Part shown: positions 40,235 to 64,000 of the stretch, piece after piece
Layout of the letters: each line of letters begins with the position of its first letter
Numbering within the stretch: the stretch's first letter is position 1
Origin: Rhizobiaceae bacterium
GTDB lineage: Bacteria > Pseudomonadota > Alphaproteobacteria > Rhizobiales > Rhizobiaceae
Reading direction: 5' to 3'
Length of the DNA: 64,000 nt
NCBI GenBank assembly: GCA_029233925.1
Contig: JARGOX010000009.1
Location: 62,001-126,000 of the forward strand
Notes under the pieces: generated by a model
The model's database searches: none
The model's input: the letters and a program-made list of their open reading frames with translations, nothing else
What the model was told of the DNA's origin: nothing
Made by a program: the position numbers and the translations under genes

Positions 40235-41140
40235 ATGGCGGGCTCGGGAGCAATATTAGCGCGCAAACGTCGAACGCTGATCCTGCTGCTGGCGCCGCTG
40301 ACATTGATGTTGTCAGTGTTCTTCCTGATCCCGCTGTCCATCATGGTGATCTACAGTTTCCTCGAACCGGGCCTTTACGGCGGCGTTGAATGGAACTGGT
40401 ATCCCTACAATTACGGACGGATCCTCGGCTGGCCGCTGAATGACTTCGAAACATTCGAAGTGATCTATCTGAAAATCTTCCTGAACTCGGCGCAGATCGC
40501 CGTCATGACGGTGATCGTGACCTTTCTGCTGTCCTATCCGGCAGCCTTCTGGGTAAGCCGAATGACGGGAGCCAGGAAAAACATGGCGCTGTTTCTCATC
40601 ACGCTGCCATTTTTTGCCAACATGCTGGTGCGCATCTACGCTTGGCTTCTGCTGTTGCGACCCACAGGGTTTTTCAACACGATCCTGCAAAGCACAGGAC
40701 TGATCGCGGAACCGTTGAACCTGCTCTTTACCAATTTCTCGGTCATCATCGGGATGGTCTACATCCTCACGCCATTCATGTTTCTGCCGATCTATGCCAG
40801 TGTCGAGAAGCTGGATTATTCGCTGGTACGGGCCTCGCAGGATCTGGGTGCAAATCCGATCCAGACCTTTCGTCGCGTGATCCTTCCGCTGACAGCGCCG
40901 GGCATCATCGGTGGCTCCGTCATCGTGTTCATTCCGGCGCTCGGCAACTTCATCGTGCCGGCCTTCCTCGGTGGATCGAAAGTCCAGATGACCGGCAATC
41001 TGATCGAGCGATCATTCCTGCAGTCCCGCGACTGGCCTTTCGGAGCGGCATTGGCACTGCTGATCATGGCCTTCGTGGTCATATTGGTGATGTTCCAGAT
41101 CAGCCGTCAGAACCGGGCTGCCGAAAGAGGGATCGCCTGA
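40235..41140 (+). CDS. ABC transporter permease, PotB type
   Basis: A 301-residue inner-membrane permease with six main helices. The coupling EAA motif is RASQDLGANPIQTF followed by LPLTAPGIIGG. The N-terminal helix reads LLAPLTLMLSVFFLIPLSIM. The stop overlaps the start of the next permease (TGATG), so translation is coupled. A paralogue of the truncated permease at 1-786. Confidence 0.93.
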   Translation: MAGSGAILARKRRTLILLLAPLTLMLSVFFLIPLSIMVIYSFLEPGLYGGVEWNWYPYNYGRILGWPLNDFETFEVIYLKIFLNSAQIAVMTVIVTFLLSYPAAFWVSRMTGARKNMALFLITLPFFANMLVRIYAWLLLLRPTGFFNTILQSTGLIAEPLNLLFTNFSVIIGMVYILTPFMFLPIYASVEKLDYSLVRASQDLGANPIQTFRRVILPLTAPGIIGGSVIVFIPALGNFIVPAFLGGSKVQMTGNLIERSFLQSRDWPFGAALALLIMAFVVILVMFQISRQNRAAERGIA

Positions 41141-48531: not shown

Positions 48532-49041
48532 TCAGTGCATCAGAGATTGGTAAATCTGAAAACTCTCATCATCGAAACAGACGAAAATCACCTGATCGAT
48601 GGCATTTCCATGGTCAAAGCCTTTGACGGTTGTCAGTGCAATCTGTGCTGCCTGCTTTTTGGGAAACCCATATACGCCCGTGCTGATGCAGGGAAATGCG
48701 ATGCTGCGGCAATCATGTTTGACACAGAGCTCGAGGCAAGCCTGATAACAATTGGCAAGCTTCTGTCGCTCGTCTTCATTGCCGCCGTTCCACACGGGAC
48801 CAACCGTATGTATCACGTATTTTGCGGGTAGATTGCCAGCGGTTGTTATGACAGCTGAACCGGTTTTGCACGGACCCTGTCGGTTTCGGATCTGCTGGCA
48901 TTCCTCCAAAATCCCTGGCCCGCCTTTTCGATGAATAGCTCCGTCCACACCGCCGCCGCCCAGCAGAGACGCGTTCGCTGCATTCACAATGATATCCACC
49001 GAAACAGCTGTTATGTCTGCTTTCAGAACTGAGATTTCCAC
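48532..49041 (-). CDS. Macrodomain protein (YmdB/O-acetyl-ADP-ribose deacetylase type)
   Basis: A single macrodomain of 169 residues. ADP-ribose-binding motifs are IIVNAANASLLGGGGVDGAIH (VNAAN and the GGGGVDGAIH loop, about residues 18 to 38), TTAGNLPAKYVIHTVGP, and the phosphate loop PCISTGVYGFP. The general sequence fits hydrolases of O-acetyl-ADP-ribose or mono-ADP-ribosyl groups. The GTG at 49041 is chosen since AAAGGAG lies 9 bases upstream; the frame extends further left without such a site. It follows the aldo/keto reductase by 79 bases. No ART/DarT toxin gene was seen beside it. Confidence 0.9.
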   Translation of the reverse strand: MEISVLKADITAVSVDIIVNAANASLLGGGGVDGAIHRKGGPGILEECQQIRNRQGPCKTGSAVITTAGNLPAKYVIHTVGPVWNGGNEDERQKLANCYQACLELCVKHDCRSIAFPCISTGVYGFPKKQAAQIALTTVKGFDHGNAIDQVIFVCFDDESFQIYQSLMH

Positions 49042-49120
49042 GATCTTCCGCTCCTTTTCGGATCGATCAATCTGTATATGGAGGCGGTCAGGATTTCGAT
49101 CCACGCCTCCAATTCTTGCC

Positions 49121-56897: not shown

Positions 56898-58352
56898 ATG
56901 TCTGCTACGAAACACCCAGATTTCACCGGCTCCGACCTGTCACGCCTGCAGGCATTTGAAGTGGTTGATCTGCTCAAGCGAAAAGAGGTTTCCCCCAAAG
57001 ACCTGCTGGATGTGAGTTTTGCGCGGATTGAAGCGGTCGGCCCGGCGATTAATGCAACCCCGACCGTGTGCCGCGAGCGGGCCTATGAGGCGGCAAAAGC
57101 TGTACATGCCTCCCATGTGGTTCATTGTGGCTGGCTGGCCGGATTGCCGATTGGTATCAAGGACCTGACACCTGTTGCGGGCGTGCGGACAACCTATGGC
57201 ACGATGGGCTTCAGCGACCATATACCGGCGGAAAGCGACCTGCTTGTCGAGCGGCTCGAAGCGCGCGGCGGGCTGGTTGTGGGGAAAACCAATACGCCGG
57301 AATTCGGGGCCGGGGCCAATACGTTCAATGATGTATTCGGTCCAACGCGCAACCCATGGGATACAAGTCTCAATGCCGGCGGGTCATCAGGCGGCGCAGC
57401 CGCTTCGCTTGTGACAGGCGAGACATGGCTGAGCCATGGGTCCGATCACGGTGGGAGCCTGCGAACACCCGCGGCATTCTGCGGTATCGTCGGCTTGCGA
57501 CCAAGCCCTGGCCGTGTCAGCGGCGGTTCGCGCGACAATGCCTTCATGATCGAAGGGGCCCAGGGGCCGATGGCGCGTTCGGTGCGCGATTGTGCTCTGT
57601 TTCTGGACGCAATGGCGGGATTTGATCCGCGTTTTCCGACATCCTTTCCGGCGCCGGACGTATCGTTTCAGGACGCGGTTCATCGTGCTCACGGCAAGTT
57701 GCGGATCGCCTTCACCGCCGATTTGAATGGCTTCGCACCGGTGGATGGTGAGGTTGAGGATCACCTGCGCGGCGTTCTGGCCTTGATGGAAGGTCAGGGA
57801 GCCGTCGTTGAACAGCATTGTCCGGATATGACCGGGCTGGATGCGACCTATCGCACGCTCAGAGGCTTGATGTGGGCGACAATGGCGCGCGGCATCGAGC
57901 CAAAGGTGCGGGCGCATTTCAAAGACGTTCTGGAAGAGAATTTCGCCAGCGGCGAAGCTTTGACTGTTCATGAGATCACGGGCGCGAACCTTGGCAGGTC
58001 AGCGCTCTATGCCAATATGGTGCAGATGTTTGATAGATTCGATGTGCTGGCATGCCCGACGGTCGGATGCCTGCCGCATCCGCAAAGCGAAGAATGGGTG
58101 CAAACCATCGGAGGGCAGAGTTTCCCGGATTATCTGGGATGGCTGCGGTTCGCCTATCTCGCGACGGTCACGGGATTGCCGGCGATTTCTGTGCCCGTTG
58201 GCCTCGGACCGCGCGGCTTGCCTGTTGGGCTGCAACTGATCGGAAAACCCCGCGGCGAAGCAGCCCTACTGGCGGCGGCCCGCGCGGTCGAGATTGCTGT
58301 AGGCGGTCCGCTGGGGCCGATTGATCCCGTCGTGACGCATGGTGACCGCTAG
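56898..58352 (+). CDS. Amidase-signature hydrolase
   Basis: A 484-residue amidase. The triad is visible: K88 in IGIKDLTP, cis-Ser S163 in GGSSGGAA, nucleophile S187 in SDHGGSLRTPAAF. The C-terminal [24 protein letters not shown] is typical. It is distinct from GatA (different N-terminus and no GatC coupling) and stands at the end of the amide importer operon, so a small amide, carbamoyl amino acid or similar substrate is likely; the specificity is unknown. The ATG is preceded by AAGGAAT. Confidence 0.88.
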   Translation: MSATKHPDFTGSDLSRLQAFEVVDLLKRKEVSPKDLLDVSFARIEAVGPAINATPTVCRERAYEAAKAVHASHVVHCGWLAGLPIGIKDLTPVAGVRTTYGTMGFSDHIPAESDLLVERLEARGGLVVGKTNTPEFGAGANTFNDVFGPTRNPWDTSLNAGGSSGGAAASLVTGETWLSHGSDHGGSLRTPAAFCGIVGLRPSPGRVSGGSRDNAFMIEGAQGPMARSVRDCALFLDAMAGFDPRFPTSFPAPDVSFQDAVHRAHGKLRIAFTADLNGFAPVDGEVEDHLRGVLALMEGQGAVVEQHCPDMTGLDATYRTLRGLMWATMARGIEPKVRAHFKDVLEENFASGEALTVHEITGANLGRSALYANMVQMFDRFDVLACPTVGCLPHPQSEEWVQTIGGQSFPDYLGWLRFAYLATVTGLPAISVPVGLGPRGLPVGLQLIGKPRGEAALLAAARAVEIAVGGPLGPIDPVVTHGDR

Positions 58353-58691
58353 AAACAGAAAAGGATACCATTTCGATGATGAGGCCATCCTCGCATCGGA
58401 CGTAGTGGAGCCAAATAGATGCCATAGCCTTGGCTGGCCCCAGTGGGGGGCTGTGTGTCTGCGGCAAAGAGACCACGAAAATTGGCACCTTCGATAGTCC
58501 GGACACGCTCGGTATTGCTAAGTGCGGTCGCTTTGTGATGCTGGGCATGGACGGGTCGCGCACCCATGCTCCTGAGGTGGGGAGTTTCGTGATATTAGTT
58601 AGGTGAAATATTTGATCAATTAGAATTTTTGCTCTTTGAAGGACCATTCTTCTTCATTGTGTTGAAGGTTTTTTGGGGTTGATAATTGGCG
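58353..58691. other. Transition region into the AT-rich islet
   Basis: 339 bases. The left half has normal composition and no real gene; a 160-codon minus-strand frame across it overlaps the amidase antisense and looks like a shadow. From about 58590 the sequence becomes clearly AT-rich. It might hold a remnant of a mobile element, but nothing was recognised. Confidence 0.35.
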
Positions 58692-59990
58692 CTACGATAA
58701 CGAAACTTCATTTGCAATGATTGGCGGAATGAAACAATTCTCTGGCCTTTTCCTCTTATCAGTAAGCATCCCCATTTTGCCAAATTTTATCTCGATCACT
58801 TGCTTTGATACCTCAAAATATGACGACAACATCGATAGTAATTGATTGTATATTCCATAATTGTAAGGTTGATCGTCGACATATATGTAACCAAAACCTC
58901 TATTTTTAATATTCAGCCTTTCTCTATATTTCGCAGTTACGATTGAGAATATATTTTCAGGTAGAATTAGATTTGAAGCAAACGTGTTTGCTTGAAATTC
59001 AAGCCGCTCGTAATTAAAGCTACTCGATTTCGGGTCGTTTAGTATTAGGTCGCTTTCTAGGATTGATTCTGAACGTAAATACCGAGCATGATTCAGGCAA
59101 AAATGACCGATTTCATGCCCAATAGTGAATCGTTCTCTTTTCTTGTCATCATGGGAATTAATCAAGATGGATTTTCGATCGAAATTTGCCGAACCTAATA
59201 TAAAATTGCCGTCACCGTCCTGAACTGCTTGGTTCGTGAATTTCAAATCTATGGATAGCACCGAGCAAATTTTTTTCAGATCAACCGGACCGGTCTCGTA
59301 TTCGATTTTTGTTAAAATATTTTGGGCGGAGACTTTAATATTTTCAACCGAGACGTACGGGACAGATACACCAACGCTGTCATTTGCACTATCGCCATCA
59401 ACAGATCTATTTGAAGCGAAACCTCTCAACAACTGATCGACTGAACCATAAAACTTACCATCGTGATATGCAGAGAATTTCAAAGATTTTACAGAGCCTA
59501 CATTTTCAAAAATTTGTTTTCTTAAAAATTTTTTCTCCGCGCATGTGCCAGTCTTGCGTTCAGCGCTGATTTCGAATCCGTATTGATCGTACTTTACAAT
59601 CCCTATCCTGCTGTTTCGGGCGACTTTGTCCGCACCTGATTGCAAACGAGAAGACACAACGATGACCCCCTTGGCACCGTGTTTGAAAATTCGGTCAAGT
59701 TTTGCTGAGAAATCGTTGATTTCCTTTTCTTTTATTGGGCTTTTTTGGTTTTTGCATTCAAAAACAACGATCAAATGGGGTGACGGTCTGCCTTTGCGGT
59801 AAAGTTCAATGACAACGTCAAATTCGACTTTTGCATCGCGCACTTGACAGAAATATTTCTTTTTTTTGTAAATTCTGCAAAGCTGTGGTGGGTATGCTCC
59901 ATAAACTAGGTCACCCTGACTTTGTTGATCAAGAAGATATTGGTGGAATTTATTCTCAAGTTCATCGCCCTTTTCCACGGTGCTTACCAT
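58692..59990 (-). CDS. Restriction-endonuclease-like / ImmA-IrrE metallopeptidase fusion protein
   Basis: A 432-residue fusion. The N-terminal part (about 5 to 140) has a PD-(D/E)xK nuclease pattern: D58 in VEFDVVIELY, then E78-x-K80 in VVFECKNQK, a helix, and GAKGVIVVSSRLQSGA, similar to Mrr-like restriction nucleases. The C-terminal part (about 225 to 430) is an ImmA/IrrE metallopeptidase, with zinc motif HEIGH at 292 to 296 and the second motif ERLEFQANTFASNLILPE near 328 to 345. The start at 59990 has GAGGG 5 bases upstream; ATG at 60029 is an alternative without it. Low GC and odd codon use suggest transfer. Possible defence or mobile-element regulator. Confidence 0.82.
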   Translation of the reverse strand: MVSTVEKGDELENKFHQYLLDQQSQGDLVYGAYPPQLCRIYKKKKYFCQVRDAKVEFDVVIELYRKGRPSPHLIVVFECKNQKSPIKEKEINDFSAKLDRIFKHGAKGVIVVSSRLQSGADKVARNSRIGIVKYDQYGFEISAERKTGTCAEKKFLRKQIFENVGSVKSLKFSAYHDGKFYGSVDQLLRGFASNRSVDGDSANDSVGVSVPYVSVENIKVSAQNILTKIEYETGPVDLKKICSVLSIDLKFTNQAVQDGDGNFILGSANFDRKSILINSHDDKKRERFTIGHEIGHFCLNHARYLRSESILESDLILNDPKSSSFNYERLEFQANTFASNLILPENIFSIVTAKYRERLNIKNRGFGYIYVDDQPYNYGIYNQLLSMLSSYFEVSKQVIEIKFGKMGMLTDKRKRPENCFIPPIIANEVSLS

Positions 59991-60224
59991 CAGACCCTCG
60001 AGTTTTGAGTAACCATTAAGAACGGCCATTCTATATTTTCGTCAAAATTTCCATTGGTGAAAATGGTTGCGACTTACGTGGGAATTGCAAACGTTCCCTT
60101 TCAATAAGAGAGAAGAAGTTGATCAATATTATTTCACCATTGGCCATATTAGGATGTAAATACGTTATAATAATCGGACGCTTGGTTCATTCTTGAGCCG
60201 TGCAACATATCCCTCATAACAACA
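59991..60224. other. AT-rich leader of the fusion gene
   Basis: Low-GC sequence with an inverted repeat: CCATTGGTGAAA at 60051-60062 and TTTCACCATTGG at 60132-60143 (11 of 12 pairs). It is a plausible operator or terminal repeat. No other gene. Confidence 0.4.
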
Positions 60225-60259
60225 AAAAACCGCCCAATCGTTTCCGATGGGCGGGTTTT
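60225..60259. terminator. Rho-independent terminator of nrdJ
   Basis: CCGCCCAATCG and CGATGGGCGG form a 10-bp stem with one bulge and TTTC loop. On the minus strand it runs into TTTTTTGTTG, a strong T-tract, 76 bases past the nrdJ stop. It can also stop rightward transcripts. Confidence 0.8.
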
Positions 60260-60335
60260 AGTATTCAGTGCTTCAGGCGCCGAGCCAGGGCTGCGTCATT
60301 CCAGCATTTGCAATCCCAACGCCAACTATTGCCCA

Positions 60336-63300
60336 TCAGCTGCAACCACTTGTACTTCCGCAGGTGTCGCATTTCAGGCAGGTGCCGTTGCGCACCATGG
60401 TGAAATTAGAGCATTCCGAGCAGATGTCGCCCGTATAGCCCTGCATGATCGCCTTGGCGCGGCGGTTGGCCTCGAGCCTTGCGGCTTCGGCTTTTGCCTG
60501 TGCGACGGCATTGTCATCGAACAGATCATCACCCAGAGCCTCTTCGACCACGACTTCCTGGCTGAGCTGCAGGGCCCGCTCTTCGTAGTCGCGCTTGAAG
60601 GCGGTTGCTTCTGCGGCATCGAGTGCTGCAACGGCTGTCGCCAGAGCGGTGCCGCCGGAAATGGCCGTGACATTGCTATTGGCCACGGGCAGGGCGCCGA
60701 GGGGGGCACCGCCGGGGGCGACCAGTTCCAGTTTGTGTCCGCGGGTCAGACCCTTGGATACAGCGGCTGCCTTGCCTTCCTGCAGGCCTCTGCCGAGCGC
60801 CGTATTGCTGAAGTCCGATGTGTCCACATGGGCCAGATCATGGCGATCGAGATAGGAGACGGCCAATTCGCGGAAGATGTAATCCAGAATGGACGTCGCA
60901 TTCTTGATGGCGTCATTGCCCTGAACCATGCCGGCAGGCTCAAATTTGGTAAAGGTGAAAGCCTCGACAAATTCATCCAGCGGCACGCCATATTGCAGGC
61001 CGAGCGATATGGAGATGGCAAAATTGTTCATCATCGCACGGAAGGCGGCGCCTTCCTTGTGCATGTCGATGAAGATCTCGCCAATGCGCCCATCGTCGAA
61101 TTCGCCGGTACGCAGATAGACCTTGTGCCCGCCAACGACGGCCTTCTGGGTGTAGCCCTTGCGCCGGTTCGGCAGTTTTTCCCGTTCGCGCGTCACCCTT
61201 TCGATGATCCGCTCAACGATCTTTTCCGTCACCGTCACGGCTTTTGCCGCAGCGGGCGCTTCCATCAGTTCTTCCAGCGCATCCTCGTCCTCGTCATCCT
61301 CGATGATCGAGGAGTTCAAAGGCTGTGACAGCTTGGAGCCGTCGCGATAGAGTGCATTGGCTTTCAGCGCCAGTTTCCAGGACATCATATAGGCTGACTT
61401 GCAGTCTTCGATATCGGCGTCATTGGGCATGTTGATTGTCTTGGAGATGGCACCCGAGATGAACGGCTGGGCTGCGGCCATCATCTTGATATGGCTTTCG
61501 GCCGAAAGATAACGCTTGCCGACCTTTCCGCAAGGGTTGGCGCAATCGAAGACGGGCAGGTGCTCGTCTTTCAGGGCCGGTGCGCCTTCCAGGGTCATGG
61601 CGCCGCAGATATGGATATTGGCGGCCTCGATTTCCTTTCTGGAAAAGCCCAGGTGCTCCAGCATGTTGAACTCAATGTCATTGAGCTGTTCGTCGCTGAT
61701 GCCCAGCGTGTCGCGGCAGAAGTCGGCGCCGAGAGTCCACTGATTGAAGACGAATTTGATATCGAAGGCGGCGGTCAGCGCTGCGTTGATAATGTCGATC
61801 TTGTCCTCGGTGAAGCCCTTGGCCTTGAGGAAGCCGGGATTGACAGAAGGCGCCTGGTTGAGATTGCCATGGCCCACGGCATAGGCTTCAATCTCGGCAA
61901 TCTGGCTTTCCGTATAGCCCAGCGTGCGCAAGGCGGCCGGAACGGCCCGGTTGATGATCTTGAAATAGCCGCCGCCGGCCAGTTTCTTGAACTTGACCAA
62001 TGCAAAATCCGGTTCGATACCGGTGGTGTCGCAGTCCATGACCAGACCGATGGTTCCGGTTGGCGCGATGACAGTTGCCTGGGCGTTGCGATAACCGTGT
62101 TTCTCGCCCAGCTCGACGGCCTTGTCCCAGGCAGCCTTCGCGTGGTCGATCAGGTCATGATCGGGGCAATGATCGTGGATCAGGGCAACCGGCTTGGTGG
62201 AAAGGTCTTCATAGCCCGATGCCTCGCCATAGGCAGCGCGGCGGTGGTTGCGCATGACCCGCAGCATATTGTCCCTGTTGGGCTCAAAGCCTTCGAAGGG
62301 ACCCAGTTCACCGGCCATTTCAGCCGAGGTTGCATAGGCAACGCCGGTCATGACAGCGGTGATCGCGCCACAGATGGCACGGCCTGAATCGGAGTCGTAA
62401 GGAATGCCGGATGTCATCAGAAGGCCGCCGATATTGGCATAGCCAAGGCCGAGCGTGCGGTATTTGTAGGACCGTTCGGCAATCTGCCTTGACGGGAACT
62501 GGGCCATCATGACCGAGACTTCCAGCACGATGGTCCAAAGACGAACGGAATGTTCGAATTCGTCGATGCGGAAAGCATTGGTCTTGTTTTCAGTGAACTG
62601 AAGCAGGTTCAGCGATGCAAGATTGCAGGCCGTGTCGTCCAGGAACATATATTCCGAGCAGGGGTTGGAGGCCCGGATGGGGCCGGCTGCCGGGCAGGTG
62701 TGCCAATCGTTCATGGTGGTGTTGAAATGCAGGCCGGGATCGGCTGATGCCCAGGCTGCATGTCCGATGCTGTCCCAAAGGTCGGTCGCTTTCAGCGTTT
62801 TTAAAACTTTGCCATCCTTGCGACCGATCAGGTCCCAGTCACCATCGCTCTCGACGGCCTTGAGGAAGTCATCCTTGATCGATACGGAATTGTTGGAGTT
62901 CTGTCCGGAGACGGTCAGATAGGCCTCTGAATCCCAATCGGTGTCATAGGTGGCGAATTCGATATCCTTGTGGCCCTGACGGGCGAACTGGATCACGCGT
63001 TTGACATAGTTTTCCGGAACCTGTGACTTCTTGGCGGCGCGGACTTCGCGCTTGAGAGCCGGGTTCTTGTTCGGATCGAAGCAATCGCCATCGGGACCTT
63101 CACAATTAACGCAGGCCTTCATGATGGCCTTCAGGTGGTCGGCAACAACCTTCGAGCCGGTGACCAGCGCGGCCACTTTCTGCTCTTCCTTGACCTTCCA
63201 GTTGATATAGGCCTCGATATCGGGATGGTCGATGTCGACCACGACCATCTTGGCCGCGCGGCGGGTCGTGCCGCCGGATTTGATCGCACCGGCAGCGCGG

Positions 63301-64000
63301 TCACCGATTTTCAGAAAGGACATGAGGCCGGAGGAACGGCCGCCGCCGGAAAGGGTTTCGCCTTCACCGCGCAGATAGGAGAAATTGGAGCCGGTTCCCG
63401 AGCCGTATTTGAACAGCCGGGCTTCACGCACCCAAAGGTCCATGATGCCGTTTTCATTGACGAGATCGTCTTCAACCGACTGAATGAAACAGGCATGCGG
63501 CTGTGGATGCTCGTAGGAGGATTTTGATTTGACGAGTTTGGTCGTGAACGGATCGACGTAGAAATGGCCCTGGCCGGGACCATCTATGCCATAGGCCCAG
63601 TAAAGGCCGGTGTTGAACCATTGCGGGCTATTGGGTGCGACGCGCTGTGTGGCGAGCATATAGGCAAGTTCATCGAAGAAGGCGAGGGCGTCTTCCTCGG
63701 TGTCGAAATAGCCGCCTTTCCAACCCCAATAGGTCCAGGTACCCGCCAGGCGGGAGAAGACCTGCCGTGCATCGATTTCCGATCCATATCGTTCATCTTC
63801 GGGCAATTTTTCGAGGGCTTTGGTATCTGCAGCTGAACGCCAGAGCCATGAGGGAACGTCATTTTCTTCAACCTTGCGCAGGCTGGCCGGAATGCCCGCC
63901 TTGCGAAAATATTTCTGCGCCAGAATATCGCTGGCAACCTGTGAGAACTGGGCGGGTACGTCAATATTTTCCAGGCGGAAAACGATCGAACCGTCGGGAT
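60336..64000 (-). CDS. nrdJ: Vitamin B12-dependent ribonucleoside-diphosphate reductase (class II), start outside window
   Basis: A single-chain class II ribonucleotide reductase. The frame is open from the right edge (reading [18 protein letters not shown]) through to the stop at 60336, about 1221 codons visible. Marks include the substrate-site SPQWFNTGL, the radical-site region [20 protein letters not shown] with a redox cysteine, [21 protein letters not shown] and [18 protein letters not shown]-terminal zinc-ribbon tail [22 protein letters not shown] carries the shuttle cysteines. It makes deoxyribonucleotides with adenosylcobalamin, aerobically or not. Followed by a strong terminator. 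Confidence 0.96.

Follow-up and report, generated by a model that had tools for sequence, protein, structure and literature searches.

A PD-(D/E)xK nuclease fused to an M78 peptidase in an AT-rich islet beside nrdJ: a candidate single-gene defence protein

We find that a single polypeptide encoded in a 64,000-nucleotide stretch of Rhizobiaceae DNA (hereafter the window) combines a complete PD-(D/E)xK nuclease site with a complete M78 (ImmA/IrrE) metallopeptidase site, the two being separated by a poorly ordered linker. Nuclease and peptidase sites are both under purifying selection. The gene is usually solitary and occupies variable places, including prophages and, in the window, a hypervariable site. 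From sequence comparison and predicted structures we put at about one half the probability that the gene moves horizontally and encodes, by itself, a defence against phage or other mobile DNA. Both domains are already known, and their fusion appears to be an undescribed combination: among the matches listed from the open-access literature searched, none describes a nuclease-M78 fusion.

Two active sites in one polypeptide

The minus-strand open reading frame at 60029-58692 of the window reads as 445 aa from its first ATG. In several homologues (for example L010, L011 and L013) the first possible start is equivalent to residue 14-15 of that frame, and a Shine-Dalgarno-like GAGGG precedes the ATG at 59990. 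For these two reasons we take the latter as the likely translation start, giving 432 aa (Table 1). The residues listed in the initial annotation (D58, E78-x-K80, HEIGH at 292-296 and ERLEFQANTFA with its E331) are correct in this numbering.

Table 1. Coordinates in the window of the fusion gene, its parts and the adjoining nrdJ features
Feature	Position	Strand	Basis and remarks
Fusion gene	58692..59990	-	432 aa from ATG 59990; 445 aa with upstream ATG 60029; stop codon 58692-58694
Shine-Dalgarno-like GAGGG	59995..59999	-	precedes ATG 59990; identical GAGGG in L016
PD-(D/E)xK nuclease domain, residues ~1-135	59586..59990	-	Pfam Mrr_cat, AlphaFold topology, Foldseek; E12, D58, E78 and K80 invariant, Q117 in 26/28
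Linker, residues ~136-209	59364..59585	-	low pLDDT in two models
Linker motif K168-SLKFSAYHD-G178	59457..59489	-	no variation at L170, K171, F172, S173 and G178 among 17 homologues (alphaproteobacterial or prophage)
M78 (ImmA/IrrE) peptidase domain and C-terminal helical segment, residues ~210-415	58746..59363	-	Pfam PF06114, PADLOC capP, Foldseek
HEIGH zinc-binding motif, residues 292-296	59103..59117	-	sequence; H292, E293 and H296 kept in 28/28
E331 in ERLEFQANTFA, presumed third metal ligand	58998..59000	-	28/28
Inverted repeat followed by T run in nrdJ direction	60222..60262	-	after nrdJ stop codon; most likely nrdJ terminator
nrdJ (ribonucleotide reductase)	60336..64000, runs past window end	-	named from translation and initial annotation; 3' side is the variable insertion site

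The N-terminal half of the window protein passes the Pfam Mrr_cat model (PF04471) marginally (E=1.3e-4; 22.5 bits for a cut-off of 21), and 18 of 22 homologue N-terminal halves match the same model at E<=0.01. In the AlphaFold model this half follows the topology alpha-beta-beta-beta-alpha-beta-alpha-beta, which is the order of the PD-(D/E)xK core. Foldseek matches were assigned to the halves by fold names and alignment lengths; those of the N-terminal half are AF1548, at 3.2e-4 and 3.6e-4, and more weakly (E above 0.001) MspJI, Can2/Card1/Cdn1 and NucS. Whether this region has a nuclease fold had been set out beforehand as a point to check, and its predicted models do match PD-(D/E)xK nucleases. 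The catalytic D...E-x-K and the core topology are present throughout (28/28 sequences for the former, both models for the latter), and we infer that the domain may cleave DNA.

Mrr type IV restriction enzymes are defined by an N-terminal winged-helix recognition domain, Mrr_N. The fusion differs from Mrr proper in this respect: Pfam at E<=1 finds neither Mrr_N nor SRA in the window protein, whose nuclease core begins at the N terminus. It shares the core (D58, E78-x-K80) with Mrr/Mrr_cat nucleases, AF1548 (1y88), MspJI, Can2/Card1/Cdn1 and NucS, though its score places it at the margin of the Mrr_cat family, and we know of no M78 peptidase in any of these proteins.

The C-terminal half matches Pfam Peptidase_M78 (PF06114) at E=1.6e-16, with 60.7 bits against a cut-off of 22. 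The M78 signature, an HExxH followed by a downstream Glu (H292, E293, H296, E331), is complete in 28/28 homologues; we take E331 to be a metal ligand from what is known of the family. The best PADLOC match is capP (1.6e-21), covering part of the peptidase half only, with RmrA and PDC-M69B as further matches. By sequence, CapP is also the closest PDB entry (7t5t; 0.034 for a single-sequence search and 2.8e-07 for a profile), while the closest folds by Foldseek are IrrE/PprI and PrpR, IrrE/PprI being the top match of both models. Pfam detects no HTH domain in the window protein and, in a general scan, no GAF domain; 27 residues follow the last predicted helix. The protein as a whole is covered by no model in PADLOC, PHROGs, NCBIfam or Pfam. 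Matches in PADLOC and PHROGs are confined to the peptidase half, and no PADLOC defence system matches at full length.

The model of the window protein, built on an alignment of 20 homologues, has a mean pLDDT of 68; its C-terminal half takes an M78 fold, and residues 136-209 are poorly ordered. The same two-domain layout recurs in a model of a homologue from Acinetobacter (28% identity with the window protein; mean pLDDT 66). Over the six closest pairs, drawn from four sequences, dN/dS is about 0.07-0.14 in the nuclease, 0.07-0.15 in the peptidase and 0.12-0.32 in the linker.

A rare gene in variable surroundings

Scanning viral contigs, genome contigs, plasmids, phages and whole genomes, we found the same architecture in 28 intact full-length proteins, near-duplicates counted (the window with L016, L013 with L015, and L033 with L034). 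E12, D58, E78, K80, H292, E293, H296 and E331 are invariant in all 28, down to 22-24% identity. The conservation of both active sites in every member argues that the fusion is not a chance event and, together with the Pfam matches on both halves, confirms the nuclease-ImmA/IrrE fusion proposed in the initial annotation. Left out of the 28 were copies with a broken frame (L028, L031, L146/L156), one at a contig end (L149), one that ends after the linker on a short contig (L148), one missing its 5' part with a transposase gene upstream (L012), and duplicates (H10 and L011/L036/L038).

Hosts of the fusion include Rhizobiales, Rhodobacterales and Acinetobacter as well as the Cytophagales Spirosoma and Rudanella. 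L154, L155 and L157 come from further members of the same phylum as the window, at a guess Gammaproteobacteria. The family tree is mostly unresolved; its nearest rows suggest that the fusion may have been transferred between orders.

The N-terminal 215 residues, compared with 398 genomes of the phylum, gave 11 matches at E<=1e-6, of which 7 (the window's own included) lie below 1e-20. In 5 of these 7 the M78 domain is in the same open reading frame, one of them cut by a contig end; of the other two, one has a frame break between the halves and in the other the frame ends after the linker. The remaining 4 of the 11 are generic nucleases with no HExxH in the frame. This type of nuclease thus goes together with the peptidase.

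Full-length copies are rare. Scoring few first-look candidates per genome, so that the frequencies are lower bounds, we found them in at least 2 of 8 genomes at genus level, each time beside nrdJ, in at least 2 of 385 at class level and in at least 1 of 397 at order level, this one being the window's own. Peptidase domains of the M78 type that lack the nuclease are much more frequent, with some match in 79 of the 385 class genomes. Of 72,556 plasmid records, 2 contain a match spanning 80% or more of the protein, and one of these is a 4.09-Mb record resembling a chromosome.

In the window, GC content is 38.4% over 58601-60225 compared with 55.6% over 36134-58600 and 57.5% over 60336-64000, which bears out the AT-rich islet noted initially. 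Among 1-kb windows along the 64 kb, the six poorest in GC each overlap the islet, and nowhere is the whole window more AT-rich than over the fusion gene and the region upstream of it. The gene does lie, as first described, between an amidase gene (56898-58352, plus strand) and nrdJ, both named from their translations. A sigma-70 promoter scan gave 4 sites against 4.3 in shuffled sequence, that is, no excess.

We considered and ruled out a large phage or integrative island at this locus: the 22 kb before the gene (36134-58600) have host-like GC, and their genes, read by eye, serve transport and metabolism. The fusion gene therefore looks like a separate small insertion. Within the same 22 kb, ARAGORN calls a tRNA-Ser (gga) at 41033-41127 inside an ABC-permease-like reading frame, which is probably a false call, and a small minus-strand frame at 48532-49104, macro-domain-like by eye, adjoins an aldo/keto reductase-like frame. 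The interval from gatA to nrdJ measures about 24 kb in the window (36134-60335) and about 0.9 kb in the relative G001 (L081).

Low GC is general in the family: the gene lies below its flanks in 28/28 loci, and by at least 5 points in 25 of them. The possibility of a fixed core position with normal composition, raised in advance, does not hold on either count, as the surroundings also differ in most genomes. We clustered neighbours over 28 loci (L003 and L012-L038, a set that includes duplicates and broken copies and overlaps with, but is not identical to, the 28 proteins). The 25 largest clusters reach two loci at most, apart from that of the fusion and those of the shared Acinetobacter locus. 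Clusters with two loci stem from one genome represented twice, from nrdJ (present in two loci) or from generic families, for example response regulators, LysR regulators and recombinases. No recurring partner gene emerges from these clusters, the shared Acinetobacter locus aside.

Individual neighbourhoods are varied. In L018, L036 and L037 the fusion has phage genes for structure or lysis nearby, and in L019 a phage-type DNA methyltransferase. Of the other neighbours tested, two in L026, one in L022 and a second one in L019 match no PHROG. In L023 the fusion gene is a lone gene flanked by what read as fabA and fabB. The L015 record, named as an Acinetobacter phage MD-2021a contig, looks like bacterial chromosome at this stretch because nuoABC, nrdAB and metE surround the gene. 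Low GC, variable surroundings, rarity and nearby phage genes all count for mobility, and islet and gene alike look horizontally acquired.

A defence island around the homologues was rejected as a general rule. With PADLOC at E<=1e-10, 117 of the 118 listed neighbours at 25 loci (a very long RTX-like frame in L013 being left out) yielded 19 families: 10 methyltransferase, 4 IetA and 1 mad3 models, with single matches to PDC-S73, PD-Lambda-5_B, PDC-M51A and PycC. The expectation that defence genes would be enriched around homologues was accordingly disappointed, 15 of the 19 families being methyltransferase, IetA or mad3 models, and no CBASS family is present among the 117 neighbours at that threshold. 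Two large neighbours may be recorded separately: L014:7364-9697 matches the candidate defence family PDC-S73 at 1.5e-28, and L033:3987-7835 matches PDC-S01 only weakly, at 7.4e-4.

The hypervariable 3' side of nrdJ

The 3' side of nrdJ in this bacterial family (60030-60336 of the window; L077-L142) is a hypervariable insertion site with defence-type genes. Among relatives in the genus, the sequence downstream of nrdJ varies from species to species. AbiU occupies the site in one sister species (3.8e-120). A second has an HNH protein similar to a type IV restriction enzyme (6.6e-08), and a third an HD protein with a weak match to a dGTPase model (1.2e-07) together with a DarG-like protein (4.2e-13). 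Yet another has a gene unrelated to defence at this place, for a multicopper oxidase, and in L082, from a further species, a protein beside nrdJ has no Pfam match. In Microvirga (L017) a fusion 57% identical to that of the window also lies beside nrdJ, in the opposite orientation relative to it, and a small separate M78 protein (L017:9421-10056; capP 3.5e-09) is encoded between the two.

The inverted repeat at 60222-60262, initially taken as a leader belonging to the fusion gene, is most likely the nrdJ terminator. We read it so because it follows the nrdJ stop codon and because sister species share a hairpin at that place: 9 to 15 pairs after the stop in 6/6 of them, followed in 3 of the 6 by at least four T in the next 8 bases. 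The notion of a leader of the fusion gene's own is therefore rejected.

The two sides of nrdJ were compared across the family. An nrdJ match was present in 77 of 81 genomes; 60 were taken by match score and distance from contig ends, hence non-randomly, and nrdJ was recognised in 56 of the 60, which were clustered. Frames within 3 kb fell into 170 clusters from 186 proteins on the 3' side compared with 87 from 164 on the 5' side; they were called by a simple longest-ORF rule, which includes spurious frames on both sides.

After three genomes with short 3' flanks had been dropped, frames of at least 180 aa were searched with PADLOC at E<=1e-10; they made up 119 of the 122 frames 3' of nrdJ and 110 of the 117 frames 5' of it. 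The search gave 52 families from 119 proteins on the 3' side versus 5 from 110 on the 5' side, figures that count families, so that fewer proteins stand behind them where one protein matches several. The 3' families, of which the best 25 of the 52 are listed, include CBASS cyclase, E1-E2 and effector models, ThsB, PD-T7-4 and PD-Lambda-2_B; those on the 5' side are mad2 and MotB-like ZorB models. Many of the 3' neighbours of nrdJ are ordinary metabolic genes. The open-access literature that we found on integration hotspots or defence islands makes no mention of nrdJ, and the site offers a ready place to seek further single-gene defence candidates in this bacterial family.

What the fusion may do

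M78 peptidases are known as triggers: they act by cleaving the repressors of genes for defence, stress responses or mobile elements. CapP, the best PADLOC and PDB match of the C-terminal half, is described in PMC10904395 as acting together with CapH and CBASS, whereas the window fusion has no HTH partner and no adjacent CBASS (its neighbours are the amidase gene and nrdJ) and carries a nuclease. The same paper presents PprI and CapP as ssDNA-activated proteases and PprI as cleaving DdrO. The fusion shares the HExxH motif with Deinococcus IrrE/PprI, but PprI has a GAF-like domain at its C terminus (PMC10904395), while the fusion ends soon after its helical segment and has the nuclease at its N terminus. 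The ImmA-ImmR pair of ICEBs1 and the COG2856-Xre pairs involve the same peptidase family on mobile elements; COG2856 proteins are often paired with Xre repressors according to PMC2701414, which also groups M78 proteins with toxin-antitoxin systems and in whose main text the word "Mrr" does not occur. The window fusion differs in lacking an adjacent or fused Xre repressor (no HTH in Pfam; flanks as above). ImmA/IrrE peptidase is among the new defence domains listed in PMC9519451, where a fused peptidase forms part of the tested phage-defence system PD-lambda-2; that system has three genes (HigB-like, Xre-peptidase fusion and a third component), and the partner in the fusion is Xre rather than a nuclease.

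On the economical reading, the fusion would be a defence protein complete in itself, its peptidase either gating a DNase or working beside it. The peptidase would be the trigger, set off by some mark of infection; in view of its relatives PprI and CapP, that mark could be ssDNA or damaged DNA. Once active, it might cleave the protein's own linker or a partner protein, which would confine DNA cutting to infection. The direction of control between the halves and the target of the peptidase are guesses. The defence reading draws mainly on the hotspot 3' of nrdJ and on the roles of M78 peptidases elsewhere. Against it we count the few defence-type genes around homologues, the failure to find the usual M78 substrate (an adjacent or fused Xre-type repressor), the PADLOC and PHROGs matches confined to the peptidase half, and, at the hotspot, the metabolic neighbours, the multicopper oxidase and the counting by families. 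The modest mean pLDDT of the two models also weighs against the explanation as a whole.

Other readings of the same protein have to be weighed. It is conceivable, although we consider it improbable, that the fusion is a regulatory protease, its M78 domain cleaving a repressor encoded elsewhere in host or prophage while the PD-(D/E)xK domain serves chiefly to recognise damage or ends in DNA, so that the whole acts like IrrE/PprI or an anti-repressor. Its closest C-terminal folds are indeed IrrE/PprI and PrpR, copies occur in prophages, and both the activation of PprI by ssDNA with cleavage of DdrO (PMC10904395) and the frequent company of COG2856 proteins with Xre repressors (PMC2701414) fit such a role. 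A nuclease triad invariant in 28/28 is more than a pure sensor needs, however; no neighbour, and hence no repressor, recurs beside the gene among the 25 largest clusters, and a wandering, solitary location is ill-suited to a fixed regulon.

Rather doubtful is a stand-alone type IV-like restriction enzyme that cuts modified or foreign DNA constitutively, with the M78 part as a secondary module for folding, binding or removing anti-restriction proteins. The Mrr_cat match, the weak Foldseek match to MspJI, a modification-dependent enzyme, and the HNH type IV-like protein at the same site in a sister species speak for it, but the catalytic residues of the peptidase are as invariant as those of the nuclease, and a DNA-recognition domain such as Mrr_N or SRA is absent at the Pfam threshold given above. 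That a solitary and mobile gene could instead be a toxin-antitoxin-like addiction gene in one polypeptide, a DNase toxin checked by its own peptidase half and serving mainly selfish persistence, accords with the grouping of M78 proteins with toxin-antitoxin systems in PMC2701414. We hold this to be very unlikely, given that the gene has no partner and is rare on plasmids, one of the two matching records being chromosome-like.

Returning to the defence reading, a trigger fused to a likely effector, with both sites fixed across two phyla, would make the link between trigger and effector testable in one protein. A more specific version, which we regard as unlikely, is an immune switch in one gene: the M78 domain would sense, for example, ssDNA, cut its own linker, possibly near KSLKFSAYxDG, and free an armed DNase. 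If true, the fusion would be a nuclease unlocked by proteolysis, independent of any repressor, partner gene or second messenger and passed between bacteria as a single gene. The KSLKFSAYxDG motif matches no known module that we could assign, and its F172 is kept in 25 of the 28 proteins of the wider homologue set.
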